From Williamsia sp. CHRR-6 (GTDB lineage: Bacteria > Actinomycetota > Actinomycetes > Mycobacteriales > Mycobacteriaceae): a stretch of DNA of 64,000 nt. The position numbers and the translations under genes are program-made. The DNA lies in contig NZ_JAHCSG010000002.1 of NCBI RefSeq assembly GCF_018474015.1, positions 62,001 to 126,000 on the forward strand, written 5' to 3'. The notes beneath the pieces were generated by a model, which searched no databases, was not told the DNA's origin, and saw only the letters and a list, made by a program, of their open reading frames with translations. Below are positions 50,485 through 63,525 of the stretch, piece by piece; position 1 is the first letter of the stretch; each line of letters starts with the position of its first letter.

Positions 50485-50916
50485 GTGAATGCCAAAGACG
50501 ACAAGCTGGCCAGCGATCTGGCCCTTGCGGTGGTGCGCCTGGCGCGGCACCTTCGCGGGCGTCGACCCACGTCGACTGTGTCGCTGACCCAGTTGTCGGC
50601 GTTGTCCACCCTGTCGCGGGAGGGCCCGATGACGCCGGGTGCGATGGCCGCCCAGGAGCGCGTCCAACCCCCGTCGATGACCCGCGTCATCGCGTCTTTG
50701 GCCGACCTCGGGATGGTCAAACGCGATCCCCATCCGACCGACGGCCGTCAGGTGATCGTCACGTTGTCGGAGTTGGGGCGTGAGGTGATCACCGATGAGG
50801 CCAACGCCCGGGAAGCCTGGCTGCGTTCGCAGCTGGAGAAGCTGGAGCCCGACCAGCTCGGCACGCTGCGGGACGCGGTGGAGATCATGACCCACCTGGT
50901 GGCCAGCACCGACTGA
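50485..50916 (+). CDS. MarR family transcriptional regulator (Rv0880-like)
   Basis: 143 residues. The HTH is TPGAMAAQERVQPPSMTRVIASL and the wing is VKRDPHPTDGRQVIVTLSELG. It matches Rv0880 by family and position. GTG 50485 is used because the nearby ATG codons are out of frame. The 189-base region 50296-50484 upstream should hold its operator; only weak repeats are visible. The next gene, an MFS exporter, may be its target. Confidence 0.87.
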   Translation: MNAKDDKLASDLALAVVRLARHLRGRRPTSTVSLTQLSALSTLSREGPMTPGAMAAQERVQPPSMTRVIASLADLGMVKRDPHPTDGRQVIVTLSELGREVITDEANAREAWLRSQLEKLEPDQLGTLRDAVEIMTHLVASTD

Positions 50917-50986
50917 TCTACGACGGCGCGTGGGGCGTGTCGCGGGCATCCCCGCGGGCTGTCGAAACAGATGTGTTTAGCAGCGG

Positions 50987-50992
50987 TAACAT
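50987..50992 (+). promoter_or_regulatory. -10 element TAACAT, leaderless start of MFS gene
   Basis: TAACAT ends 7 bases before the ATG at 50999, and there is no ribosome binding site, predicting a leaderless transcript. Confidence 0.45.
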
Positions 50993-50998
50993 AGGCTC

Positions 50999-52249
50999 AT
51001 GCCGCTACCGACGATGTTCTCCTCGCTGTCGGTGCGCAACTACCGTCTCTGGGCGTCGGGCCAGGTCGTCTCGCTGGTGGGTACCTGGATGCAGCGGATC
51101 GCCCAGGACTGGTTGGTCCTGCACCTCTCGGGCAACAGCGGGGTGGCCATCGGGATCGTGATGGCCCTGCAGTTCGGTCCCACCGCAGTCTTCTCCATGC
51201 CGGCCGGGGCGCTGGCCGATCGATTCGACAAGCGCCGCCTGCTGATCGCCACCCAGGTAGGAATGGCTCTGTGCGCCTTGATCCTTGGGCTGTCCGACAC
51301 CCTCGGTGCGGCCACCCTGGGGCAGGTGTACGCCATCTCGCTGGCGCTGGGGGTCATCTCCGCGATCGATGCCCCGATCCGACAATCGTTCACCGTCGAG
51401 ATGGTCGGCCCCGAGCAACTGCCCAACGCGGTGGCGCTGAACTCGATGACGTTCAACCTCGCCCGCATCATCGGTCCCGCGATCGCAGGCGTGCTGATCA
51501 CCCTGGTCGGCACCGGGCCGGTCTTTCTGATCAATGTCGCCACGTTCGTCGCGGTGCTCACCGGGCTGCTGATGATGAACGACTCGCAGCTGCAGCGCAG
51601 CGCCCGTTCGGTCGGGTCGCGCTCGGTACGGGCCGGGCTGTCCTACGTGCGCGAGCGCCCGCAGCTGATCGCCCTGTTCGCCACCGTCTTCGTGGTTTCC
51701 ACGTTCGGCCTGAACTTCCCGCTCTCGTTGGCCCTGTTGACCAAGAACACCTTCGCCGGATCGGCCGGCGGGTACGGGTTCTTGTCCACGATGTTGGCGG
51801 TGGGCACCCTGGCCGGGGCCACGCTGGCGGCCCGGCGCCGCGGCCCGGCCACCCTGCGCACCTTCTTCCTGGCCGCGGTCGCCTTCGGGGTGCTGGAGAC
51901 CGCGGTGGGACTCATGCCCACCTTCTGGCTGGTGGCGGCCATGTTGATCCCCGCCGGCATCGTGTCGCTGTTGTTCACCACCGCAGCGATGAACATCGTT
52001 CAGCTGTCCGTGGATTCGTCGATGCGCGGTCGCGTGATGGGCATCTACATGCTGTGCTTCCTGGGTGGCACCCCCGTGGGCAGCCCCCTGTTGGGTTGGT
52101 TGGCCGAGGTGACCAGCCCGCGCGCACCGCTGTTGGTGGGCGGGCTGGTGAGCGTGGCCGCGGGCGTCGCGTGCGCACTCCTGGTGCGGCGAAGGCACAT
52201 CGGGGCACCGGGGAGCACCGCGCCCACCGAGGTGCCCGTCAGCGCTTGA
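50999..52249 (+). CDS. MFS exporter, EntS-like
   Basis: 416 residues, twelve helices. The start MFSSLSVRNYRLWASGQVVSLVGTWMQRIAQDWLVL and GALADRFDKRRLLIATQ are of the MFS_3 (EntS) group, which exports siderophores or drugs. It follows a MarR gene, a common pairing for drug-efflux control. Confidence 0.88.
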   Translation: MPLPTMFSSLSVRNYRLWASGQVVSLVGTWMQRIAQDWLVLHLSGNSGVAIGIVMALQFGPTAVFSMPAGALADRFDKRRLLIATQVGMALCALILGLSDTLGAATLGQVYAISLALGVISAIDAPIRQSFTVEMVGPEQLPNAVALNSMTFNLARIIGPAIAGVLITLVGTGPVFLINVATFVAVLTGLLMMNDSQLQRSARSVGSRSVRAGLSYVRERPQLIALFATVFVVSTFGLNFPLSLALLTKNTFAGSAGGYGFLSTMLAVGTLAGATLAARRRGPATLRTFFLAAVAFGVLETAVGLMPTFWLVAAMLIPAGIVSLLFTTAAMNIVQLSVDSSMRGRVMGIYMLCFLGGTPVGSPLLGWLAEVTSPRAPLLVGGLVSVAAGVACALLVRRRHIGAPGSTAPTEVPVSA

Positions 52250-52265
52250 CGCCCGCCGAGCGAAC

Positions 52266-53489
52266 TCAGAAGAAGGTGCCGCAGAACGGAGTCCGGTCGG
52301 TGCGAAACGCCCGGTCCAGCGCATCGAGTGTCTGCGGGTCGGCCGCCCAGAGCCGCCCGGCCGCCGCGAACTGACCGGCCCCGAACCCGCCGAGGTAGAT
52401 GCTGCTCAACACCGAGATGTCCATCCGCACAGTGGGATCGGCGTCGGTGGCGGCCACCGTCGCGGCCCCGTCACGCACGATAAGGCTGAATCGACCACCC
52501 CGGGAACGGAATTCGTCACTCACCTCCAGCACCACGTCGAGATCGCCGGGGTAGGTGCGCGCGCTCAACGCGGCCGGGACGTCGAGGACACGCAGCCACA
52601 TCGTGTCGTCGATCGCGGTGACGGTGGGGGCACGCAGATCGGTCAGCTTGAGCGGCAACGGATCATCGGTGGGGATCGAGGCCTCCACCCGGGTCACCAG
52701 GTCGAGGTTCAGCAATACCTGCCACAGATCGGTGTGGGCGGTGTCGGTGATGGGGAAGAACTCCGACACCTCCACCAGCGGACGGCCGTCCTCGCGCGCG
52801 ATGCGATAGCTGGCGTAGCCGTCGGGGTGCAGCAGGTAGTGCAGCGTGCTGCGGCCGTCGCGGCGCACCTTTCGGTCGGCGAAGATCATGTTCCACCACA
52901 CGGGCGATCGCAGGATGGCCCCGGGGTGTGAAGCCGCCCAACGATCATGCAGCGTCGGGACCACCGACTCGATGAGGTCGGCGTCGGCGTAGCGGACGGG
53001 AGAGTGGATCGGGGCGGGCGTGCGCAGCCGAGCCCGACGTAGATCGACCCGCACCCGCTGGGCCGAGGTGGCCGGACCGTATCCGAACCGCTCATAGATG
53101 GTGGCCTCGCTCGCGGTGAGGATCGAGAACGCGGAGTTTTCCTGCTCCCACTGGTCGAACAGCTCGCAGAGCATCATCCGCAGGATGCCGCGCCGACGGT
53201 GGGTGGCCGCCACCGAGACCCACGACAGGCCGGGCAGATCGACACGGGTGCCGCCGGGCACCGTCAGCGCCATCCGGTAGAACATCGCCACCCCGGCGAG
53301 AACCGGTGCGTGGGAGCCAGATTCGTCGTAGACCACCACCACGTCGTCGTTACGGAGCTTGTCGCGCAGATCAGCCTGGGCGGCGTCGTCGAGCGGCTCG
53401 GCGAACATGAACGCACGCGCGTCGGCGGCGATGATGTCGGGCCAGTCGTCGTCGGTGGCCCGGCGGAGGACGAGATCGGATGCGGTCAT
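52266..53489 (-). CDS. Eis-like GNAT N-acetyltransferase
   Basis: 407 residues in the Eis layout: N-terminal GNAT domain (VAATHRRRGILRMMLCELFDQW, acetyl-CoA binding), second GNAT-like domain, and SCP2-like C-terminal domain ending with Phe-Phe, where the terminal carboxylate is part of the active site in Eis. Related enzymes acetylate aminoglycosides, peptides or Lys residues. ATG 53489 has GGTGGAG close upstream. Confidence 0.85.
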   Translation of the reverse strand: MTASDLVLRRATDDDWPDIIAADARAFMFAEPLDDAAQADLRDKLRNDDVVVVYDESGSHAPVLAGVAMFYRMALTVPGGTRVDLPGLSWVSVAATHRRRGILRMMLCELFDQWEQENSAFSILTASEATIYERFGYGPATSAQRVRVDLRRARLRTPAPIHSPVRYADADLIESVVPTLHDRWAASHPGAILRSPVWWNMIFADRKVRRDGRSTLHYLLHPDGYASYRIAREDGRPLVEVSEFFPITDTAHTDLWQVLLNLDLVTRVEASIPTDDPLPLKLTDLRAPTVTAIDDTMWLRVLDVPAALSARTYPGDLDVVLEVSDEFRSRGGRFSLIVRDGAATVAATDADPTVRMDISVLSSIYLGGFGAGQFAAAGRLWAADPQTLDALDRAFRTDRTPFCGTFF

Positions 53490-53544
53490 GAACTCCACCG
53501 TTGCACATCGGCCGGACCGGGCGCACCTGCCGTGGGCGACGACC

Positions 53545-54636
53545 TCACTCGTCGAAGGTGAGGACCGCCTTGATGACCCCGCCGCTCTCGGAGGCCTCGA
53601 TGGCCTCGTTGATCTTGCTGAACGGGAAAGTACGGACCAGCTTCTCCATCGGGAACTTGCCCTCGAGCTGCCATTGCACCAGCTGTGGGATGAACTCCTG
53701 AGGATTGGCGTCGCCCTCGATGCACCCGCGAATTGTTTTGCCGCCGTTGATGAGATCCTGCGCGTCCACGGTGAGGTCGGGCCCGGTGCCCACCACCACC
53801 AGGGTGCCCAGGGTGCCCAGGGACAGGGCGGCGTTGCGGATCACCGCCGGGATACCGGTGGTGTCGAAGGCGTGCGACGCCCCACCTGCGGTGATCTCTT
53901 TGAGCTTGTCGACCACCTGCACGTCGCGGCCGTCGAGAGCGTGTGTGGCCCCGACCTGAAGTGCTGTCTCGCGGCGCGACTCGGTGACGTCGACGGCGAT
54001 GATCTGCCCTACCCCCAGGTTGGCGGCGGCCATCACCGCAGCCATCCCGACGGCGCCGGCGCCGAAAACCACCAGGCTGGACTGTTCCTCGGGTCGCAGG
54101 ACGTTGAGTACCGCACCCGCGCCGGTCTGGATGCCGCAGCCGAAGGATGCGACCAGCGACAGATCGCAACGAGGGTCGACGACCACCGCGTTGCTGCGAC
54201 GGGTGAGGATGTAGCCGGCAAAACTGGACTGACCGAAGAACGCACCCGCCACCGGCTTGCCGTGCTCGGTGATGGTGGCGGTGCCGTCGAGTCGTTTGCC
54301 CGAGGCGTTGGCGGCCTGAAAGTTTCTGCAGTAGTTGCGTAGTCCGCGCACACACGGCTCGCATCGGCCACAGGATGAGAAACTCACCACCACCCGTTCG
54401 CCCACCCGCACGTCGTCGATGTCGGAGCCGACCTGTTCGACGATCCCGGCGCCCTCATGACCCAACACGATCGGAACACCTTCGGGCCAGACGCTCTTGA
54501 TGGCCAGATCGGTGTGACAGATGCCCACCGACTCGATTCGGATCAGCAGCTCATCCGGCCGGGGGTCGTCGAGGTCGACGTCTTCGATGGAGAACGGGGT
54601 GTGTGCTCCAGTGCTCACGGCGGCAACGGTTTTCAT
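53545..54636 (-). CDS. Zinc-dependent alcohol dehydrogenase, aryl/allyl-alcohol type
   Basis: 363 residues. Catalytic zinc ligands are Cys40 (GICHTDL) and His60-Glu61 (GHEGAG); structural zinc is held by Cys89, 92, 95 and 103. The NAD-binding motif is VFGAGAVGMAAVMAA. SFGCGIQTGAGAVLNVL resembles benzyl-alcohol and geraniol dehydrogenases. The ATG overlaps the aldehyde dehydrogenase stop (ATGA), so the alcohol and aldehyde steps are coupled. Confidence 0.9.
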   Translation of the reverse strand: MKTVAAVSTGAHTPFSIEDVDLDDPRPDELLIRIESVGICHTDLAIKSVWPEGVPIVLGHEGAGIVEQVGSDIDDVRVGERVVVSFSSCGRCEPCVRGLRNYCRNFQAANASGKRLDGTATITEHGKPVAGAFFGQSSFAGYILTRRSNAVVVDPRCDLSLVASFGCGIQTGAGAVLNVLRPEEQSSLVVFGAGAVGMAAVMAAANLGVGQIIAVDVTESRRETALQVGATHALDGRDVQVVDKLKEITAGGASHAFDTTGIPAVIRNAALSLGTLGTLVVVGTGPDLTVDAQDLINGGKTIRGCIEGDANPQEFIPQLVQWQLEGKFPMEKLVRTFPFSKINEAIEASESGGVIKAVLTFDE

Positions 54637-56150
54637 GACTTCTTCTCCAACGGTGTCGTGGTGGTGGGGTGGTCGATGCGGGCGGTGGCATCGGCGTGGG
54701 CGCCCGCGATGGCGGCGCGCAGACCGGCGATGGTTTTCGCGTCGTAGCCGCCGGGGTGCAGGCTGACCGCGGTGGGCACCGGCAGCTCGGAGGCCGACAC
54801 CGCCCGCCGATGACTGAACGTGTCGAACCCGGGCTTGCCGTGATAGCTGCCCATGCCGCTCTGACCGATGCCGCCGAAGGGCACGTCAGGGACACTGAGG
54901 TGTACTGCAAAGTCGTTGCGCGACATGCCACCTGATGTCGTCTTGCGGCGGAACTCGGCGAATTCGGCCGAGTCGTCGCCGTACCAGTAGGCGGCGAGCG
55001 GCGAAGGCCGCGAGGTGATGTAGGAGATCGGCTCGGACAGATCGTCGTAGGTGAACACCACCAGGACCGGCCCGAAGATCTCCTCGTGCGCCACCTGCAT
55101 CTCGTCGGTCACGCCGAGCAGGATGGTGGGGGCGATGAACCGGGTCTGCGGATCGGGTAGCCGGGCGGCCTTCTCGTCGGCGACCCCGACGATGGCGGTG
55201 GCGCCCTTGGCGACTGCGTCGTCGATGAGCCCGGTCACGCGGTCGTAGTTGCGGTCGTTGATGATCGAGGTGACGTTGGGGTTGGTGGCGTAGTCCGGGA
55301 AGTACTCGGCGAACGTCGCTCGCAGGCCCTCGACGAACGCGTCTCGAGAGCTGGTGGGAACGAACACGTAGTCGGGGCACAGACACACCTGGCCGCCGTT
55401 GATCATGCGCGCCAAAGCGATTCGCTTCGCCGACTCGGCGATGTCGGCGTCGGTGCCCACCACCACCGGGTTCTTGCCACCCAGCTCCAGCGTGACCGGG
55501 GTGAGATTGTCTGCGGCTGAGCGCATCACGATCTTGCCCACCGCCGGTGACCCGGTGAAGAACAGGTGGTCGAACGGCAGCGCGGAGAATGCCGTCGCGA
55601 CGTCGATACCGCCGTTGACCACGACCAACTCCTCCGGCGGGAAGTACCGGGCGATGGCGTCGGCGAGAACCTGACCCGAGCGGGAGTTCACATCGGTGAA
55701 CTTGATCATCACCCGATTGCCCGCCGCGATGGCCTCGGCGGCGGGTAGCACCACGAGCTGCACCGGGAAGTTCCACGGGCCCACCACACCGACGACGCCC
55801 TTGGGGTCGACATCGATCGTGGTGGGTATGCCCGATTCGGCCGAACCGGCCACCGGGATCGGCTGCATCCAGTCCTCGAGGTTGTCCCGAGCGTGCTGGA
55901 TGGCGGCGAGCACGCTGAGGATCTCCACCACCAGGCTGAACTGCTCGGGGCGCTGGCCGAAGTCGGCGTCGAGGGCGGCCACCAGGTCGTCAGACGCCCC
56001 GGACAGGGCGAGTGCCAGTCGATCCAGCCGGTTGCGGCGGACCTCGGCGCTGGGGGGCCCCTCGGCGAGGAAGGCGGCGCGCTGTCGGTCGAACAGCTCC
56101 TTCAGTTCGACTGCCTCGACAGTGGTTCGGGTGAGCTCGGAAGTCGTCAT
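54633..56150 (-). CDS. Aldehyde dehydrogenase, coniferyl-aldehyde-dehydrogenase-like
   Basis: 505 residues. Catalytic Cys256 lies in NGGQVCLCPDY and Glu222 in TLELGGKNP. The NAD motif is FTGSPAVGK. The N-terminal form (LKELFDRQRAAFLAEGPPS) and GGQVCLCPDYV motif match the short-loop CALDH group that oxidises fatty or aryl aldehydes. AGGGG 6 bases before the ATG. A ~60-residue C-terminal extension beyond the usual end (HPGGYDAKTIAGLRAAIAGA) is unexplained. Confidence 0.88.
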   Translation of the reverse strand: MTTSELTRTTVEAVELKELFDRQRAAFLAEGPPSAEVRRNRLDRLALALSGASDDLVAALDADFGQRPEQFSLVVEILSVLAAIQHARDNLEDWMQPIPVAGSAESGIPTTIDVDPKGVVGVVGPWNFPVQLVVLPAAEAIAAGNRVMIKFTDVNSRSGQVLADAIARYFPPEELVVVNGGIDVATAFSALPFDHLFFTGSPAVGKIVMRSAADNLTPVTLELGGKNPVVVGTDADIAESAKRIALARMINGGQVCLCPDYVFVPTSSRDAFVEGLRATFAEYFPDYATNPNVTSIINDRNYDRVTGLIDDAVAKGATAIVGVADEKAARLPDPQTRFIAPTILLGVTDEMQVAHEEIFGPVLVVFTYDDLSEPISYITSRPSPLAAYWYGDDSAEFAEFRRKTTSGGMSRNDFAVHLSVPDVPFGGIGQSGMGSYHGKPGFDTFSHRRAVSASELPVPTAVSLHPGGYDAKTIAGLRAAIAGAHADATARIDHPTTTTPLEKKS

Positions 56151-56260
56151 GAGAGGCCCCTGTTCTGGTGCGTCGGTGATGTTTGGTCTGTGCACCCAGG
56201 ATGCCCAGGGCTCAGGAAGGGCTTCAACGAACCGACGTGGCAACCTCCACCATTGGTGCG

Positions 56261-56275
56261 TTGCGCGAAGTGCAA
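56261..56275. promoter_or_regulatory. LysR-type box upstream of the ALDH-ADH operon
   Basis: TTGC-N7-GCAA is a dyad of the T-N11-A form, ~110 bases before the aldehyde dehydrogenase start and just downstream of the lysR gene. A related TTGC-N5-GCAA occurs at 57286-57298 in the lysR/CoA-transferase divergent region. These are candidate sites for the LysR protein. Confidence 0.45.
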
Positions 56276-56313
56276 TGTTCTGAACTGGTGAAACTAGGTT
56301 CTGACCTGCAGTT

Positions 56314-57234
56314 TCAGTAACGTTCCGGTATCGGCCACCGTGACCTCGCCGCAACCACGAGCTCGGCGACCACCGGATCGCGCTCGGCCTCGATGCGCCG
56401 CCACACCAGACCCAGCTCGAAGACCAGCCGCCCGCCACGGATCGGTCGCACCGCGAAACCGGGATGGTCATACGGCCCGCGGGCCCAGCTGCCGGCCCGA
56501 CCCTGTACCGTCAGGGTGACCCCCCGCATCTGGCGCACGTGACCGGCCACCCGGGCCGAATCCTGATCCGGCACCCGATGCACGGTGGTCACGCCGGCGG
56601 CGGCGAGGTCAGCCATCAACTTGCCCATCGCGACCGGCTGCGGATCGTCTGGACCCATGATGAGGGTGCGCGCGGCGAGGTCGGACAGTTCCACCTCGTC
56701 GGCGGCGGCGAGTTCGTCATCGGAACGCATGGCCACCTGAAACGTGTAGAGCGCGGCCACCAGGCTCTCCAGGCCCGGACGATCGTGGGGCAGGTGGACC
56801 ATGGCGATGTCGAGGGCACCGCGTTCGACCATGTCGATCAGCTCCACCGACGACCCGACCGCACCCTGGACCGGCCGACCGCCCGCCGCCGATGCGACCA
56901 CCTCCTCCAGATCGTCGACCATCCCGATCGGGGCTCGGAAGATGTTGCCGCTGCGTACCACTCGTGCCGAGTTGATGGCGTCGGGGTCGATTTTCGAGGG
57001 CAGCGCGTCCACGGCGGCCAGGATCGACTGCACGTGCGGGCGCAACGCGGTGCCCGCACTGGTCAGCTCCACGCTGTGGTACCCGCGGATGAACAACTCG
57101 GTGCCCAGTTCGCGTTCGAGCTCTTTGACCGTCCGGCTGACCGGCGACGGCGTGAGGTGCAGTCGTGAGGCTGCCCGGCCGAAATGCAGTTCCTCGGCCA
57201 CCGCGTCGAAGCACCGCAGCTGATGCAGGTCCAT
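56314..57234 (-). CDS. LysR family transcriptional regulator
   Basis: 306 residues. The N-terminal HTH is MDLHQLRCFDAVAEELHFGRAASRLHLTPSPVSRTVKELERELG. The rest is a co-inducer-binding domain. It is divergent from the CoA-transferase gene and lies upstream, on the same strand, of the aldehyde and alcohol dehydrogenases, so it is well placed to control both arms of the pathway. GTG 57243 is an alternative start. Confidence 0.9.
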   Translation of the reverse strand: MDLHQLRCFDAVAEELHFGRAASRLHLTPSPVSRTVKELERELGTELFIRGYHSVELTSAGTALRPHVQSILAAVDALPSKIDPDAINSARVVRSGNIFRAPIGMVDDLEEVVASAAGGRPVQGAVGSSVELIDMVERGALDIAMVHLPHDRPGLESLVAALYTFQVAMRSDDELAAADEVELSDLAARTLIMGPDDPQPVAMGKLMADLAAAGVTTVHRVPDQDSARVAGHVRQMRGVTLTVQGRAGSWARGPYDHPGFAVRPIRGGRLVFELGLVWRRIEAERDPVVAELVVAARSRWPIPERY

Positions 57235-57399
57235 ACCGAACACAACTACTACATTGCGCGCTCGAGCAGGTAGGGCTGCCGGAACTTGCGATGGGCAATC
57301 CGATTCCGTCGAGGCACGGTGGAAACACGGCAACCATCCGCCGGCACCGGGCCCGTACACCCCGCGGGTCGCGGGTCGACTGTGAACTCTGGAGGGACG

Positions 57400-59886
57400 A
57401 TGGCCGACACCACGCACTTACCGCTCGACTCTTTGACCGTCCTGGACCTGTGCAACGGTCCCGGCGCGTCGGCGACCCGACTGCTCGCCGACCTCGGGGC
57501 CGATGTGATCCGAGTGGAACCACGGGCAGGCAGCCCGGCTCGCACCGACGGCGTGCTGGTCGGCTCGCACTCACTGACCTACGCGGTCCGACAGGCCAAC
57601 AAGCGGGTGATCGCGCTCGATCTCGACCGACCGGGTGCCGACCTGGATGAATTCTTCGCCCTGGCCGCCCGAGCCGACATCGTGTTCGAGGATTCCCGGC
57701 CCGCCCAACATGCGAGCAACCCGGTACGCCCGGAGGTGCTTCGGGGGCGTTTCGACTCGCTGGTGATCGTCTCGGTCACCGATTTCGGTCAGACTGGGCC
57801 GTATCGGGACTGGGTGGCCACCGAGCCGGTCCTGTTGGCGCTCAACGGCGAACTGTCGCGCTCGGGCCTGCCCGGTCGGCCGCCGCTGCTTCCGCCGGTG
57901 GAGTTGGCCACCGAGTCGGCAGCGGTGCAGGCCGCCTGGTGTGCGCTGCTGGCGTACCTGCGTCGACTCGACACCGGTAGCGGCCAGATCGTGGACTTCT
58001 CGATGATGGAGGCCGCCACCCAGGCCCTCGATCCGGCGTGGGGAGTGGGCGGGTCGGCGACCGGTGGCCGTACAGCCGTGGAGGGGCCGCGCGGTCGCCC
58101 CGATGCGCGTAACCGGTACCCCGTCTTCGCCTGTCGCGACGGGTACGTCCGGCTGTGCATCCTCTCGCCGCGGCAATGGCAGGGCATGTTCACCTGGATG
58201 GGTGAACCCGAAGAGTTCTCCGATCCCGGTCTTGCCGCGATTCCCAAGCGGTTCAAGGTGATCGACAAGATTCACGCCGCCATCGGCGCGATGTTCGCCG
58301 ATCGTTCGCGGGCCGAGATCGTCGAGCAGGGTCGTCGCCACGGAGTGCCCGCCGCGGCGATGCTCGAACCCCACGACGTCTTCGAGATCGAACAGTACGA
58401 CGAGCGTGGCGCTTTCACCTGGGTCGACGTCGACGGCCGAACCGCCCGCGTCCCCGACGGTCTCGTCGAGATAGACGGGGTCCGGGCGGGCACCCGCACC
58501 GCTGCACCCACCCCGGACCAGCACGGAGCCCAGATTCGATCCGAGCTGGCGACGCCGCGTGCGACCGGGCCCGCCGAACCCGGTCGCCTCGACCGAGATC
58601 AGTTGCCACTGGCCGGACTTCGCGTGCTCGACCTCGGCGTCATCGTGGTGGGCGCCGAGACCGGTCGGCTGATGGCCGACATGGGTGCTCAGGTCATCAA
58701 GGTGGAGAACACCGCCTTCCCCGACGGCAATCGGCAGTCGATCAAGGGCGATCCGATGACGTGGTCGTTCGCCTGGGGCTGCCGCAACAAGCTGGGTCTG
58801 GGGATCAACCTGCGCAGCCCGGAGGGCATCGCGGTGTTCAAGGAACTCGCGGCGACTGCCGATGTGGTGTTGTCGAACTTCAAGCCGGGCACCATGGAAT
58901 CCCTCGGCATCGGGTATGACGTTCTCTCCCAGATCAATCCGGGCATCGTGATGGCCGACAGCTCGGCGTTCGGGCCCACCGGCCCCTGGAGTCGGCGCAT
59001 GGGCTACGGCCCACTGGTGCGGGCCGAGACAGGGCTGTCGATGCTGTGGAGCTACCCGGCCGCCGACGGCTCCGAAGGCTCCGACGGTGTCGAGGTTGCC
59101 GACGGGGGAGACGGGTTCAGTGATGCCAGCACCATCTATCCCGATCACACCGCCGGGCGGGTGGGTGCGGTGGCCGTGCTGGCGCTGCTGCTCCGCCGAC
59201 GCGCGACCGGGCACGGAGGCACCGTCAGCGTCGCACAGGCCGAGGTGGTGCTGAGCCAGATGGCGGCGCACCTCGGACGCGACTGGCTGTCGCCGGGATC
59301 GCTACGGGCACCGGGCAATTCGTTGGACGCCGACGCCGGACGCGGGGTGTACCCCTGCGCCGGTGACGACGAGTGGGTGGTCATCACCAGCCGCGACACC
59401 GCCGACTTCGCCGCGTTGGCCCAGACGATCGGTCGGCCCGAGTGGGCCGACGATCCCGACCTGGGCACCGTCGAGGGCCGGCTGGCCCGCCGCACCGAGA
59501 TCGACGCCGCGGTGGCACGGTGGACCGGTACGCGCAGCCCGCAGGACGCGGCCCAGATCCTGCAGTCAGCGGGGGTGCCCGCGGGCCGGATGGCGCGGCC
59601 GCTGGACCTGCTCGACGATCCACATCTGCGTGACCGCAAGTTCTTTCGCACCATGACCCACCCCCTGATGTCGGGGTCGGAGCCGACTGAGAACCAGCCC
59701 GCCGTGTTCGAATCGATGCCACCGACCCCGCTTGAACCGGCCCCGCTGGCTGGTCAACACACCCGCGAGATCCTCTCGCAGGTGCTCGGATACTCCGATC
59801 AGCGACTCGACGAGCTCATCGAGCTCGGAGCGCTCCAGGAGACGCTGCCCCAACCGACCGATGCAACCGTCCCGAACAGAAGGTGA
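57400..59886 (+). CDS. Double-domain family III CoA-transferase
   Basis: 828 residues made of two CaiB/BaiF-type domains (about 1-395 and 405-815). Domain 2 has the expected start LAGLRVLDLGVIVVGAETGRLMADMGAQVIKVE and the catalytic-Asp motif YPDHTAGRVGAVAVLALLLRR. Domain 1 has the fold (LTVLDLCNGPGASATRLLADLGADVIRVEP), but its equivalent motif reads ATESAAVQAAW, without the Asp. It probably transfers CoA from a donor thioester to the acid made by the dehydrogenases. TGGAGG precedes the ATG. Confidence 0.87.
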   Translation: MADTTHLPLDSLTVLDLCNGPGASATRLLADLGADVIRVEPRAGSPARTDGVLVGSHSLTYAVRQANKRVIALDLDRPGADLDEFFALAARADIVFEDSRPAQHASNPVRPEVLRGRFDSLVIVSVTDFGQTGPYRDWVATEPVLLALNGELSRSGLPGRPPLLPPVELATESAAVQAAWCALLAYLRRLDTGSGQIVDFSMMEAATQALDPAWGVGGSATGGRTAVEGPRGRPDARNRYPVFACRDGYVRLCILSPRQWQGMFTWMGEPEEFSDPGLAAIPKRFKVIDKIHAAIGAMFADRSRAEIVEQGRRHGVPAAAMLEPHDVFEIEQYDERGAFTWVDVDGRTARVPDGLVEIDGVRAGTRTAAPTPDQHGAQIRSELATPRATGPAEPGRLDRDQLPLAGLRVLDLGVIVVGAETGRLMADMGAQVIKVENTAFPDGNRQSIKGDPMTWSFAWGCRNKLGLGINLRSPEGIAVFKELAATADVVLSNFKPGTMESLGIGYDVLSQINPGIVMADSSAFGPTGPWSRRMGYGPLVRAETGLSMLWSYPAADGSEGSDGVEVADGGDGFSDASTIYPDHTAGRVGAVAVLALLLRRRATGHGGTVSVAQAEVVLSQMAAHLGRDWLSPGSLRAPGNSLDADAGRGVYPCAGDDEWVVITSRDTADFAALAQTIGRPEWADDPDLGTVEGRLARRTEIDAAVARWTGTRSPQDAAQILQSAGVPAGRMARPLDLLDDPHLRDRKFFRTMTHPLMSGSEPTENQPAVFESMPPTPLEPAPLAGQHTREILSQVLGYSDQRLDELIELGALQETLPQPTDATVPNRR

Positions 59887-59891
59887 CCCCG

Positions 59892-62264
59892 ATGACCTCT
59901 CCCGTGCCCCCCACCACCCCGATCCTGGTCGGAGTCGGCCAGGCCTCTGAACGCCTCGGCGACCCCGACTTCACGGGGCTCTCGCCGGTCGATCTGTCCG
60001 CCCACGCAGCTCGTGCCGCCCTGCACGACACCGGTGTCGACGCCGCGACGATCGCCGCGGCTATCGACACCATCGTCGGAGTGCGACAGTTCGAGCACTC
60101 CACGCCCCGCGCGCACGCACCACTGGGCACGAGCAACAACGTGCCGCGATCGGTGGCGGCGCGGCTGGGTGTTCAGCCCGAGCACGCCGTTCTCGAGGTG
60201 GTCGGCGGTCAGGGGCCCCAGCATCTGGTCAACGAGTTCGCCCGTCGTATCGCCGACGGAGACAACGAGGTGGTGTTGTTGACCGGGTCAGAGGCCATCT
60301 CCTCGGTCCGCCACTTCGCCAAGGCCGACCAACGGCCCGATTTCAGCGAAACCGTCGAGGGCACCCTGGAGGACCGCGGTTACGGGCTCACGGGTTTGAC
60401 CTCTTCGCAACAACTCTCGCACGGCCTGATGGGCGCGCCCTCGCAGTACGCATTGTTCGAGAACGCGCGCCGCGCGCGACTCAAGGAGTCGCGTGCCGAC
60501 TACGCCGCGTCGATGGGCAAGCTGTTCGAGCCGTTCACCGCGGTGGCCGCGAACAACCCGCACTCGTCTGCACCACGAACCATGACCGCCGAGGAACTGG
60601 TCACCGTCACCGAACGAAACCGCTGGATCGCCGAGCCCTACCCGCGGTTCCTGGTGGCTCGGGATCAGGTGAACCAGGGTGCCGCCGTGCTGCTCACCTC
60701 GGTGGCCGCCGCGCGTCGACTCGGCATCGCCGAGGACCGCTGGGTGTTTCTGCACGGACATGCCGACCTGCGCGAGCGTGACCTCCTCGACCGCGCCGAC
60801 CTCAGCCGCGCGCCCTCGGCGGTGATGGCGGCCGAGCACGCGCTTGAGGTCGCGGGCATCACCGTCGATGACGTGGCCACCTTCGACCTGTACTCCTGCT
60901 TCCCGATCGCGGTGTCGAACGTGGCCGATGGGCTGGGTCTGGCGGCCGACGACCCGCGTGGTCTGACCGTCACCGGCGGGCTGCCGTTCTTCGGCGGCGC
61001 CGGGAACAACTACTCGATGCATGCGATCGCCGAGACGGTGCAGCGGTGTCGGGCCAACCCCGGTTCCCACGGGTTCGTCGGGGCCAACGGCGGCCAGCTC
61101 AGCAAATACTCGGTGGGGGTGTACGCCACCACCCCCACCGAATACCGCCGCGATCGCAGCGCCGAGATCCAGGCGGAGATCGATGCGTGGCCGGCGGTGG
61201 ACAACGCCGCGTTCCCCGACGGCCCGGCCACCATCGAGACCTACACCATCACCCACGCCCGCGACGGCAGACGCAAAGCCATCGTGGTGGGGCGGCTGGA
61301 GGCGACCGACGAGCGTTTCGTGGCCAACGGGCTCGAGGACGACGACGAGCTGGTGGAGTTCCTGGCCACCGCCGACGAGCCGATCGGGCAGCCGATCTTC
61401 GTGCGTGCCTTCGGTTTCGGCAATCGGGTCACGCTCACCGCCGATCGGATGCGGGAGTTGCGCCCGGTGCGTGCCCCCGGGTTCCGCGACAGCTACGAGT
61501 TCGTCGAGGTGGCCCGCGACGGTCACCTGCTGGAGGTGACCATCAACCGGCCGCAGGCGCGCAACGCCTTGCACCCGCCGGCCCACGAGGAACTCGAGGA
61601 GATCTTCGACGCCTACTTCGCCGATCCGGATCTGTGGGTGGCCATCATCACCGGTGCAGGCGACAAGGCGTTCTGCGCCGGCAACGACCTGATCTACACC
61701 GCCAGCGGCAAACAGTCGTACTTCCCGCGCAGCGGATTCGCTGGTCTCACCAGCCGCGCGGGCATGACCAAACCGGTCATCGCCGCAGTCAACGGGTACG
61801 CGATGGGCGGTGGGTTGGAGACCGCGATGGCCTGTCACCTGGTGGTCGTCGACTCCGAGGCGAAGCTGGCCCTCAGTGAGGTGCGTGTCGGTCTGGTCGC
61901 CGCTGCCGGAGGCGTGGTGCGGCTGCCACGTCAGCTGCCGGTGAAGACGGCCACCGAGATGATCCTCACCGGACGTCGCCTCGGTGCGCAGGAGGCACTC
62001 GAACGTGGGTTGGTCAACAAGGTGACCCCGGCGGGGCAGGCACTGGCCGGGGCTCGTGAGCTGGCCGCCGAGATCATGGCCGGGTCGCCGACGTCGGTGC
62101 GGGTGTCGTTGCAGCTGATGAACGAGACCGAGGGCATCGCCGACACGATCGCCGCGGTCACCCACCGCAGTGGCGCCCTCGATGAGTTGATGATCGCCGA
62201 GGACACCATGGAAGGGCTCAGCGCCTTCGGTGAGAAGCGGCCTCCGCAGTGGAAGAACCGCTGA
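59892..62264 (+). CDS. Thiolase-like protein (TLP1) fused to enoyl-CoA hydratase
   Basis: 790 residues, one open frame. Residues ~1-490 are a thiolase fold of the SCP2/TLP1 kind (GGLPFFGGAGNNYSMHAIAE, DLYSCFPIAVSN) with the extra C-terminal OB-like domain. The nucleophile position reads VVGGQGPQ, without Cys. Residues ~530-790 are a crotonase with FCAGNDL oxyanion loop, GGGLETAMAC and ALSEVRVGLVAAAGG (both catalytic Glu). Fusion would couple hydration and thiolysis-like steps on one CoA ester. ATG 59892 is preceded by AAGG; GTG 59883 overlaps the previous stop. Confidence 0.88.
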   Translation: MTSPVPPTTPILVGVGQASERLGDPDFTGLSPVDLSAHAARAALHDTGVDAATIAAAIDTIVGVRQFEHSTPRAHAPLGTSNNVPRSVAARLGVQPEHAVLEVVGGQGPQHLVNEFARRIADGDNEVVLLTGSEAISSVRHFAKADQRPDFSETVEGTLEDRGYGLTGLTSSQQLSHGLMGAPSQYALFENARRARLKESRADYAASMGKLFEPFTAVAANNPHSSAPRTMTAEELVTVTERNRWIAEPYPRFLVARDQVNQGAAVLLTSVAAARRLGIAEDRWVFLHGHADLRERDLLDRADLSRAPSAVMAAEHALEVAGITVDDVATFDLYSCFPIAVSNVADGLGLAADDPRGLTVTGGLPFFGGAGNNYSMHAIAETVQRCRANPGSHGFVGANGGQLSKYSVGVYATTPTEYRRDRSAEIQAEIDAWPAVDNAAFPDGPATIETYTITHARDGRRKAIVVGRLEATDERFVANGLEDDDELVEFLATADEPIGQPIFVRAFGFGNRVTLTADRMRELRPVRAPGFRDSYEFVEVARDGHLLEVTINRPQARNALHPPAHEELEEIFDAYFADPDLWVAIITGAGDKAFCAGNDLIYTASGKQSYFPRSGFAGLTSRAGMTKPVIAAVNGYAMGGGLETAMACHLVVVDSEAKLALSEVRVGLVAAAGGVVRLPRQLPVKTATEMILTGRRLGAQEALERGLVNKVTPAGQALAGARELAAEIMAGSPTSVRVSLQLMNETEGIADTIAAVTHRSGALDELMIAEDTMEGLSAFGEKRPPQWKNR

Positions 62265-62289
62265 CCGAGGCGGCGTCGGGGGCATAAAT

Positions 62290-63525
62290 GTGGCCGTGCG
62301 CAGACTTGCACTGCACATGGTGTTACCGAGGACGGCGTCGACCGCCGGGTTGATGGTGGTGCTGGCGATGATCATGCTCGGCACCACCATGCCCACGGCG
62401 GTCTACGCCACCTACCAACGCGAGTTCGGGTTCTCGCTGCTCACCGTCACCATCATCTACGCCACCTACGCCGTGGGGGTGTTGGTCGCGCTGCTGGCGT
62501 TGGGCACCTGGTCGGATGTGCTCGGTCGGCGGCCGCTGCTACTCGGCGGGATCGGATGCGCCATCGCAAGCGACGTGGTGTTCCTGCTGGCCGACGACAC
62601 CGCGATGCTGCTGGTGGGGCGGTTGGTGTCGGGGCTGTCGGCCGGGGTGTTCGTGGGCACCGCATCGGTGGCGATCATCGAGATGGCTCCACGCCACCTG
62701 GCCGCTCGGGCGCCGCTGATGGCGTCGATGGCCAACATCGGTGGTCTGGGTCTGGGTCCGGTCACTGCTGCGATGCTCATCACCTGGTTTCCCACGCCCA
62801 CCCGCACCCCCTACGCAGTACATCTGGGGCTGATGGTGATCGCCGCGCTCATCGTGTTCGCGGTGCCCGAGACCCGACCGCGCGACCGCGACACCCCGGT
62901 CCGGTTGACCGTCATGCCGCTGTCGGTTCCCGCCGAGGTGCGTCCGGTGTTCGTGCGTGCCGCGATCCTGGGCTTCGCCGGGTTCGCGGTGCTGGGACTC
63001 ATCACCGCCGTCACCCCGACGTTGGCGGCGACGGTGGTGGGTGTCCACTCGGTGATCGGGGTGGCGTTCCTCGTCTTCGCGGTGTTCGCCGGTTCCATCG
63101 TGGGACAGAACCTCGGTCGGCGGCTCGACGCCCGCCCCGCCGATGCCGTGGCCATCGCGCTGTTCGTCGTCGGGATGGGGTTGTTGGTGGCGACCGTGCA
63201 CATCGGCCGGTGGGAGGTGTTGGCCGCTGCCGCGGCGATCAGCGGGATGGGCCAGGGGATCGCGTTCGCGCGCGGGCTGGCCGGGATCGCCGCCGCTGCG
63301 CCCGCAGCCACGAAGGCTGCAGTCACCTCGGCCTACTTCGTGGTGATCTATGTGGGCATCAGCCTGCCGGTGGTGGCCGAGGGGGTGTTGTCGAATGCGA
63401 TCGGGATCCGCACGGCCAGTGAGGTCTTCGCCGCCGCGGTGGTGGTGATGGCGGTGGTCGCCGGTGCGTTGGGCGTGGCCGCCGACCGCCGTGGGACACC
63501 TTCTCCAGCCGGCGGTCGCCCATGA
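62290..63525 (+). CDS. MFS transporter of the catabolic locus
   Basis: 411 residues, twelve helices. VLGRRPLLLGG is the MFS loop motif and LGTTMPTAVYATYQREFGFS the first helix pair. It probably takes up the substrate of the locus. GTG 62290 was chosen; GTG 62296 and ATG 62317 are alternatives. Its stop overlaps the next start (ATGA). Confidence 0.82.
   Translation: MAVRRLALHMVLPRTASTAGLMVVLAMIMLGTTMPTAVYATYQREFGFSLLTVTIIYATYAVGVLVALLALGTWSDVLGRRPLLLGGIGCAIASDVVFLLADDTAMLLVGRLVSGLSAGVFVGTASVAIIEMAPRHLAARAPLMASMANIGGLGLGPVTAAMLITWFPTPTRTPYAVHLGLMVIAALIVFAVPETRPRDRDTPVRLTVMPLSVPAEVRPVFVRAAILGFAGFAVLGLITAVTPTLAATVVGVHSVIGVAFLVFAVFAGSIVGQNLGRRLDARPADAVAIALFVVGMGLLVATVHIGRWEVLAAAAAISGMGQGIAFARGLAGIAAAAPAATKAAVTSAYFVVIYVGISLPVVAEGVLSNAIGIRTASEVFAAAVVVMAVVAGALGVAADRRGTPSPAGGRP

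Follow-up and report, generated by a model that had tools for sequence, protein, structure and literature searches.

What does a locus degrade that joins an alcohol-oxidising gene pair to a double CoA-transferase and to a fusion of a thiolase-like protein with an enoyl-CoA hydratase (ECH)? The question is raised by two divergent gene arms near the end of the window, i.e., the whole analysed stretch of 64,000 nucleotides from Williamsia sp. CHRR-6 (contig NZ_JAHCSG010000002.1, positions 62,001 to 126,000). The leftward arm carries a LysR-type regulator, an aldehyde dehydrogenase (ALDH) and an alcohol dehydrogenase (ADH), and the rightward arm a double family-III CoA-transferase (CaiBx2), the fusion and a major facilitator superfamily (MFS) transporter. 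We tentatively suggest, with confidence a little short of even, that the two arms form a unit under LysR control for the catabolism of a primary allylic alcohol, most probably one of the acyclic terpenoids (e.g., geraniol, nerol), which would be degraded via hydration and retro-aldol cleavage in one fusion protein. The mechanism is moderately likely and the substrate less so. We infer every reaction, the substrate and the co-regulation from features read in the sequence: the gene set, the fusion, its conserved residues, the recurrence of the set and the adjacency of linalool dehydratase/isomerase (Ldi) genes in two genera.

The proposed route

ADH and ALDH would convert the alcohol via the aldehyde to a 2-enoic acid, which CaiBx2 would activate to 2-enoyl-CoA. 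The ECH half of the fusion would add water at C3, and the resulting 3-hydroxyacyl-CoA would be split by the thiolase-like half in a retro-aldol reaction to a carbonyl compound and acetyl-CoA. In the case of geraniol, geranyl-CoA would be converted via its 3-hydroxy adduct to 6-methyl-5-hepten-2-one and acetyl-CoA. Such a route would need no geranyl-CoA carboxylase (ATU/LIU), hydroxyacyl-CoA dehydrogenase or thiolase; since a tertiary 3-hydroxyl cannot be oxidised, a dehydrogenase and a thiolase would be of no use here.

Genes of the locus

All six genes of the initial annotation (LysR, ADH overlapping ALDH, double CoA-transferase, thiolase-like/ECH fusion and MFS) were recovered, each at its coordinates and with a match to its Pfam family. 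The features are as follows.

53545–54636, minus strand: ADH, zinc-dependent medium-chain alcohol dehydrogenase of the aryl/allyl type (PF08240 and PF00107)
54633–56150, minus strand: ALDH (PF00171), likely start MTTSEL at 56150, 505 amino acids
56314–57234, minus strand: LysR-type regulator (PF00126 and PF03466), start by MDLHQL, 306 amino acids
57235–57399, intergenic: LysR/CaiBx2 divergent promoter region, 165 bases
57400–59886, plus strand: CaiBx2, double family-III CoA-transferase (CoA_transf_3 twice in a single frame)
57400–58587, plus strand: N-terminal half of CaiBx2, catalytic-Asp stretch degenerate (9FN0 subunits are the best solved relatives)
58588–59886, plus strand: C-terminal half of CaiBx2, Asp residues kept (9FN0 chain B, 177.9 bits)
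59892–62264, plus strand: thiolase-like/ECH fusion (a single frame with weak thiolase matches, TLP1_add_C and ECH_1)
59892–61439, plus strand: thiolase-like half, thiolase fold with the TLP1_add_C barrel at about 61164–61409 (NF006105, 4EGV, PF18313)
60207–60209, plus strand: Gly109, site of the thiolase nucleophile (Gly in 52 of 52 relatives; Gly102 of MsTLP1)
60891–60899, plus strand: Tyr337-Ser338-Cys339, predicted aldolase dyad (Tyr and Cys in all 52 relatives; opposite YDCF of 5AB4 in the alignment)
61500–62264, plus strand: ECH half (PF00378, 4.1e-56; crotonase relatives)
61818–61820, plus strand: Glu646, first crotonase-hydratase catalytic Glu (invariant in 36 rows)
61878–61880, plus strand: Glu666, second catalytic Glu (at least 90% of 36 rows)
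62290–63525, plus strand: MFS transporter (PF07690, 1.9e-30), start uncertain, the reading frame opening at 62230

The ALDH stop and the ADH start overlap by 4 bases, and the fusion starts at ATG 59892 behind AGAAGG, with GTG 59883 as the alternative. Among solved structures, ADH is closest to 5TNX (340.6 bits), followed by benzyl alcohol dehydrogenase 1F8F (298.8 bits). ALDH had been labelled as coniferyl-aldehyde-type, a name that none of the libraries used returned; its best solved relative is the steroid aldehyde dehydrogenase 9NXL, and its best NCBIfam match is the benzaldehyde dehydrogenase model (MdlD), far under the cut-off.

The genome has 26 acyl-CoA dehydrogenase hits (PF00441) and three 3-hydroxyacyl-CoA dehydrogenase (3HCDH) hits (PF00725), all outside the window, so the locus itself is devoid of both enzymes, as had been noted initially. 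No short-chain dehydrogenase/reductase (SDR)-type dehydrogenase is among the genes of the set either (a genome-wide SDR search was not made). Since the set has no acyl-CoA dehydrogenase, the acid is probably already unsaturated, which agrees with the initial annotation.

The thiolase-like half

By its sequence, the thiolase-like half is a TLP1 (“thiolase-like protein type 1”). It scores 775.4 bits against NF006105 (cut-off 683), contains PF18313 (E 1e-15) and matches the solved MsTLP1 (4EGV) across the whole half with 609 bits (E 8.1e-182). MsTLP1 is described as a monomer with an additional six-stranded barrel, in which Gly102 replaces the nucleophilic Cys, YSCF replaces NEAF and thiolase activity is absent (PMC3406046).

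In the window protein, the nucleophilic Cys of the thiolase CxS motif is not present; its place is taken by Gly109, and Gly occupies it in all 52 relatives compared (29 best loci, 20 weaker, hand-picked ones with 34–51% identity, and 3 plasmid hits). Tyr337, Cys339, Tyr377, His380 and Lys408 are likewise identical in these 52 relatives, which were found independently of the motif. Counts from the 80 genome_contigs loci, which came from a scan for YSCF, were not used as proof of this motif.

The initial annotation had ended the pathway with thiolysis; under this reading, the route would be ordinary beta-oxidation, with a hydroxyacyl-CoA dehydrogenase supplied from elsewhere in the genome. The NCBIfam name of the protein (acetyl-CoA acetyltransferase) and the three 3HCDH hits would suit this scheme, but thiolysis by the fusion was rejected on account of the Gly at the nucleophile site of all 52 relatives together with the reported inactivity of 4EGV as a thiolase, and the scheme as a whole is highly improbable. 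Retro-aldol cleavage accounts better for the lack of a hydroxyacyl-CoA dehydrogenase.

In a profile search of PDB sequences, YSCF of the TLP1 half was aligned with YDCF of the SCP2-thiolase-like protein 5AB4 (whole match E 2.6e-8), which we infer from its name and motif to be TbSLP. According to published work (sources include PMC12329534 and PMC10386936), Tyr and Cys of the YDCY motif are essential for retro-aldol cleavage in the steroid aldolase CtSal, which has Gly at the nucleophile site, and the product of Sal is an aldehyde; for TbSLP, a very weak malonyl-CoA decarboxylase activity was found, and thiolase-like proteins were suggested as possible aldolases. The TLP1 half shares the site features of Sal, SLP and Ltp2: the Tyr at the NEAF/HDCF site, the Cys two residues on (in Sal and SLP), and Gly at the nucleophile site. 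The TLP1 half is thus a predicted retro-aldolase, in which Tyr337 would serve as the base on the 3-hydroxyl and Cys339 as the acid on the enolate, with Gly109 replacing the thiolase nucleophile.

It is unlikely that the TLP1 half instead binds CoA as a scaffold or catalyses a different reaction, cleavage being left to enzymes elsewhere. MsTLP1 has no known function and binds CoA with a Kd of only 0.6 mM (PMC3406046), the activity recorded for the related TbSLP is that of a malonyl-CoA decarboxylase, albeit very weak, and TLP1 loci devoid of ECH exist; the six residues, however, are the same in all 52 relatives, as expected of an active site.

Extending the retro-aldolase prediction beyond this locus calls for more reserve. 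We suggest, with confidence somewhat under even, that TLP1 proteins, orphans within the thiolase superfamily, are 3-hydroxyacyl-CoA retro-aldolases and that the TLP1–ECH fusion is a single-chain, carboxylase-free hydratase-aldolase for 3-methyl-branched isoprenoid alcohols (geraniol, nerol, linalool) in Actinobacteria. No published account of TLP1 aldolase activity or of this alcohol route was found in the open-licence literature.

The hydratase half

Both crotonase glutamates, which we take to be the catalytic ones of crotonase hydratases, are kept: Glu646 in 36 of 36 rows and Glu666 in at least 90% of them. The solved relatives of the ECH half include mevalonyl-CoA hydratase SidH and methylglutaconyl-CoA hydratase, the substrates of which are 3-methyl-branched at the reacting carbon. 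In steroid degradation, an unfavourable hydration equilibrium is overcome by the aldolase (PMC11321319); by analogy, the TLP1–ECH fusion could overcome it within one chain. The coupling of hydratase and aldolase is also favoured by clusters in which the two genes are separate: G131 (L047) has LysR, CaiBx2, an ECH gene and a TLP gene in one cluster, and TLP and ECH are adjacent genes on a Methylobacterium plasmid (L041).

In a congeneric fusion (L052:3225–5564), the first hydratase Glu is Asp, and this ECH half may be altered.

The CoA-transferase

For both halves of CaiBx2, the subunits of the benzylsuccinate CoA-transferase 9FN0 are the best or nearly best matches. This enzyme consists of two unlike family-III subunits, each half of CaiBx2 matching both of them, whereas here the subunits are fused into one chain and the N-terminal half has no conserved Asp. 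In the C-terminal half, this Asp, presumably the catalytic residue of the family, is kept by all 14 rows of the alignment, whereas none is conserved across the 22 columns (15 rows) examined of the N-terminal half; two rows in each count are the identical L068 and L110. CaiBx2 is likely to combine one working (C-terminal) and one structural or degenerate (N-terminal) half.

Recurrence of the gene set

The gene set is real and goes beyond chance. The combination of LysR, CaiBx2, ALDH, ADH and the fusion is found again in another genus of the family (L045, in which the two CoA-transferase halves are in different frames), in Pseudonocardia (L068, sequence identical to L110) and in Paractinoplanes (L073). 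It is also complete in Nonomuraea (L119), though with a more distant ALDH. A search in related genomes had been proposed initially, with scattered neighbours as the outcome that would speak against a unit; instead, the set was found together in these four loci. CaiBx2 and the fusion flank ALDH and ADH in L045, L073 and L119, so that both arms belong together, and LysR relatives adjoin CaiBx2 in related loci. The set supports the initial reading as a CoA-dependent unit, acting on an allylic or aryl alcohol.

CaiBx2 lies near TLP or TLP–ECH in 15 of the 80 genome_contigs loci (14 distinct). When its presence was mapped on the fusion tree (n = 58: 54 of the 80 loci, L042, L045, L257 and the window), 9 changes were required versus a mean of 14.2 for shuffled labels, and none of 500 shuffles gave a number as low. 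Near the fusion, tblastn gave no match to hydroxyacyl-CoA dehydrogenase in 100 loci plus the window and L062, nor in 79 loci; since about one match is expected by chance, this absence is weak evidence.

ADH was also considered as a marker of the set and was rejected: none of the 15 regions around weaker ADH relatives (43–51% identity) contained TLP. These regions were taken from 38 other places listed, and two of the stretches were just 4–6 kb long.

The substrate

The ADH of the window is related in sequence to benzyl alcohol dehydrogenase (1F8F), and geraniol dehydrogenase GeoA is, we assume, a member of the same family. A phenylpropenoid (cinnamyl or coniferyl) alcohol could be processed by the same hydratase-aldolase chemistry, cinnamoyl-CoA giving an aromatic aldehyde and acetyl-CoA, and ALDH would also oxidise the product aldehyde. 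This relationship of ADH, the MdlD match of ALDH (below the cut-off) and the aldehyde formed by Sal are in line with such a substrate, which we nevertheless regard as distinctly unlikely: no ring-cleavage genes are among the genes of the set, and the gene that recurs by the ADH- and ALDH-bearing loci is Ldi, a member of a terpene-alcohol enzyme family.

In Pseudonocardia (L068), the fusion is immediately followed by Ldi (PF18566, E 1.5e-66), then by an HMGL-like lyase and by what reads by eye as a two-subunit CoA-transferase. In Nocardia harenae (L081, the same as L251, G288:C4), the Ldi gene separates ALDH from the fusion, with ADH also in the locus, and a second locus of this species (G288:C9, L257 and L239) combines the fusion with CaiBx2, ALDH and a pair of Ldi genes. 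Among the six distinct loci with fusion and ADH more than 50% identical (window, L045, L068, L073, L081, L119), Ldi is present in two, and tblastn revealed none in the stretches examined of the other genome_contigs loci. Ldi is uncommon: within the family it was found in 34 of 401 genomes, and within the class in 14 of 394 (overlapping samples). Its presence beside the fusion, ADH and ALDH in two genera favours geraniol-type alcohols, and geraniol, one of the candidates initially named, gains support from it.

The terpenoid substrate is also favoured by ADH relatives (44–45% identical to that of the window) beside the classical-looking Ldi genes of L217–L219. These stretches, from three genomes, have a strong Ldi match (E about 1e-113) and ALDH, with no TLP1 in the stretch, and in L217 an AMP-dependent acyl-CoA ligase by Pfam; they probably represent another myrcene/linalool cluster.

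It is very unlikely that the substrate is alicyclic (e.g., perillyl alcohol), in which case the TLP1 half would open its hydrated ring thioester. GeoA is most active on perillyl alcohol (PMC4109377), but the known ring route given there requires MrcD and MrcE, a dehydrogenase and a hydrolase, neither of which is in the set, and no limonene gene was noticed beside it.

In total, N. harenae has two TLP1–ECH loci and three Ldi genes, and its two fusions are 74% identical. Ldi was rejected as a general marker of the set.

Findings weighing against the proposed unit

A number of findings count against a geraniol-type unit with a hydratase-aldolase. For the substrate, the genome of CHRR-6 itself has no PF18566 hit with the same query that matched the 34 family genomes; linalool would therefore not be the entry point here, and a primary allylic alcohol would take its place. 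Of 40 Ldi regions (38 from the family search and 2 from the class search, with only L239 extended further), 38 have no fusion within the stretch, and the two with a fusion locus are both from N. harenae. Even there the set is incomplete: CaiBx2 is missing from the surroundings of L081, and ADH from the stretch examined of the second locus.

For the mechanism, TLP1 has no DUF35 partner (none is in the set) and MsTLP1 is monomeric, unlike Sal and Ltp2; Cys339 is replaced by Ser in one of the 80 genome_contigs loci; and TLP1 occurs beside CaiBx2 with no ECH (L129). For the gene set, 65 of the 80 fusion/TLP loci have other neighbours, with no CaiBx2 in the stretch examined (some stretches being short). 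An acyl-CoA dehydrogenase lies close by in 32 of 79 fusion/TLP loci, so that a single substrate cannot account for the fusion, and in relatives other acids, saturated ones, may be cleaved in this way.

For regulation, the LysR/CaiBx2 promoter and the gap upstream of ALDH (56151–56313) share no operator motif beyond what shuffled sequence gives, and across this promoter and those of seven relatives no motif was better than in shuffled sequence. The proposed co-regulation thus rests on the operon layout in relatives.

Origin of the locus

The locus was probably acquired, as suggested by its distribution within the genus. Vertical inheritance was rejected because CoA-transferase matches in the seven further genomes of the genus are just 31–39%, and the Williamsia and Gordonia fusions are placed in another part of the fusion tree.

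Comparison with known systems

The steroid hydratase-aldolases Shy-Sal of Comamonas testosteroni and ChsH1-ChsH2-Ltp2 combine a hydratase with a retro-aldolase of the thiolase fold, the substrate being a CoA thioester, as is predicted here, and by comparison of residues and motifs the likeness to Sal extends to Gly at the nucleophile site and to the Tyr-x-Cys motif. In contrast to these systems, the hydratase here is a crotonase and not a MaoC protein, the two domains form one polypeptide and not a complex held by DUF35, and the TLP1 barrel is found in place of DUF35. Moreover, this set has no steroid genes, and Ltp2 uses two Tyr residues. MsTLP1 of Mycobacterium smegmatis (4EGV) belongs to the same subfamily, with YSCF, Gly at the nucleophile site and the extra C-terminal domain, but it stands alone, while here TLP1 is fused to a hydratase inside a catabolic operon.

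The ldi-geoA-geoB linalool/myrcene pathway of Castellaniella defragrans resembles this locus in the pair of allylic alcohol and aldehyde dehydrogenases, and Ldi occurs in relatives of the set. It differs in that the genome of CHRR-6 has no Ldi, that a CoA-transferase is present here versus the ligase GeoC there (PMC4109377), and that different next steps are predicted. With the ATU/LIU acyclic terpene pathway of Pseudomonas, the predicted common intermediate is geranyl-CoA. In that pathway (PMC4097962), geranyl-CoA is carboxylated (AtuCF), hydrated (AtuE) and cleaved by a lyase, the carboxylation sidestepping the tertiary-hydroxyl problem. No biotin or geranyl-CoA carboxylase is among the genes of the set (the rest of the genome was not searched).

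The same review of 2014 presents ATU/LIU as the sole citronellol/geraniol pathway complete at the gene and enzyme level (PMC4097962). If the proposed route is true, a carboxylase-free actinobacterial route would be the second such complete pathway, and a function would be assigned to TLP1, published in 2012 as a structure with no thiolase activity. The aldolase suggestion made for TbSLP would become directly testable with small substrates, and the fused hydratase-aldolase could serve as a catalyst adding acetyl-CoA to ketones.

Neighbouring genes and other fusion loci

Fusions also occur in other surroundings. In Planotetraspora, L083 has a TLP1–ECH fusion and two other species (L122 and L124) have TLP1 alone, with shared neighbour genes, which is a case of gene fusion or loss inside one genus. 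Large plasmids of Novosphingobium (L039) and Sphingobium (L040), one of them typed as conjugative, carry a fusion with a single CoA-transferase. In L042:4418–14491, the fusion lies beside TetR, a nitronate-monooxygenase-like gene and an NDP-forming acyl-CoA synthetase (by eye), between two DDE transposase genes.

Left of ADH in the window (50485–53498) are a Rv0880-family MarR regulator, an MFS_3 transporter and an Eis-like GNAT acetyltransferase with an SCP2-like domain, which we do not count in the set. The next open reading frame after the MFS gene, from 63522, is RNA methyltransferase-like as read by eye.

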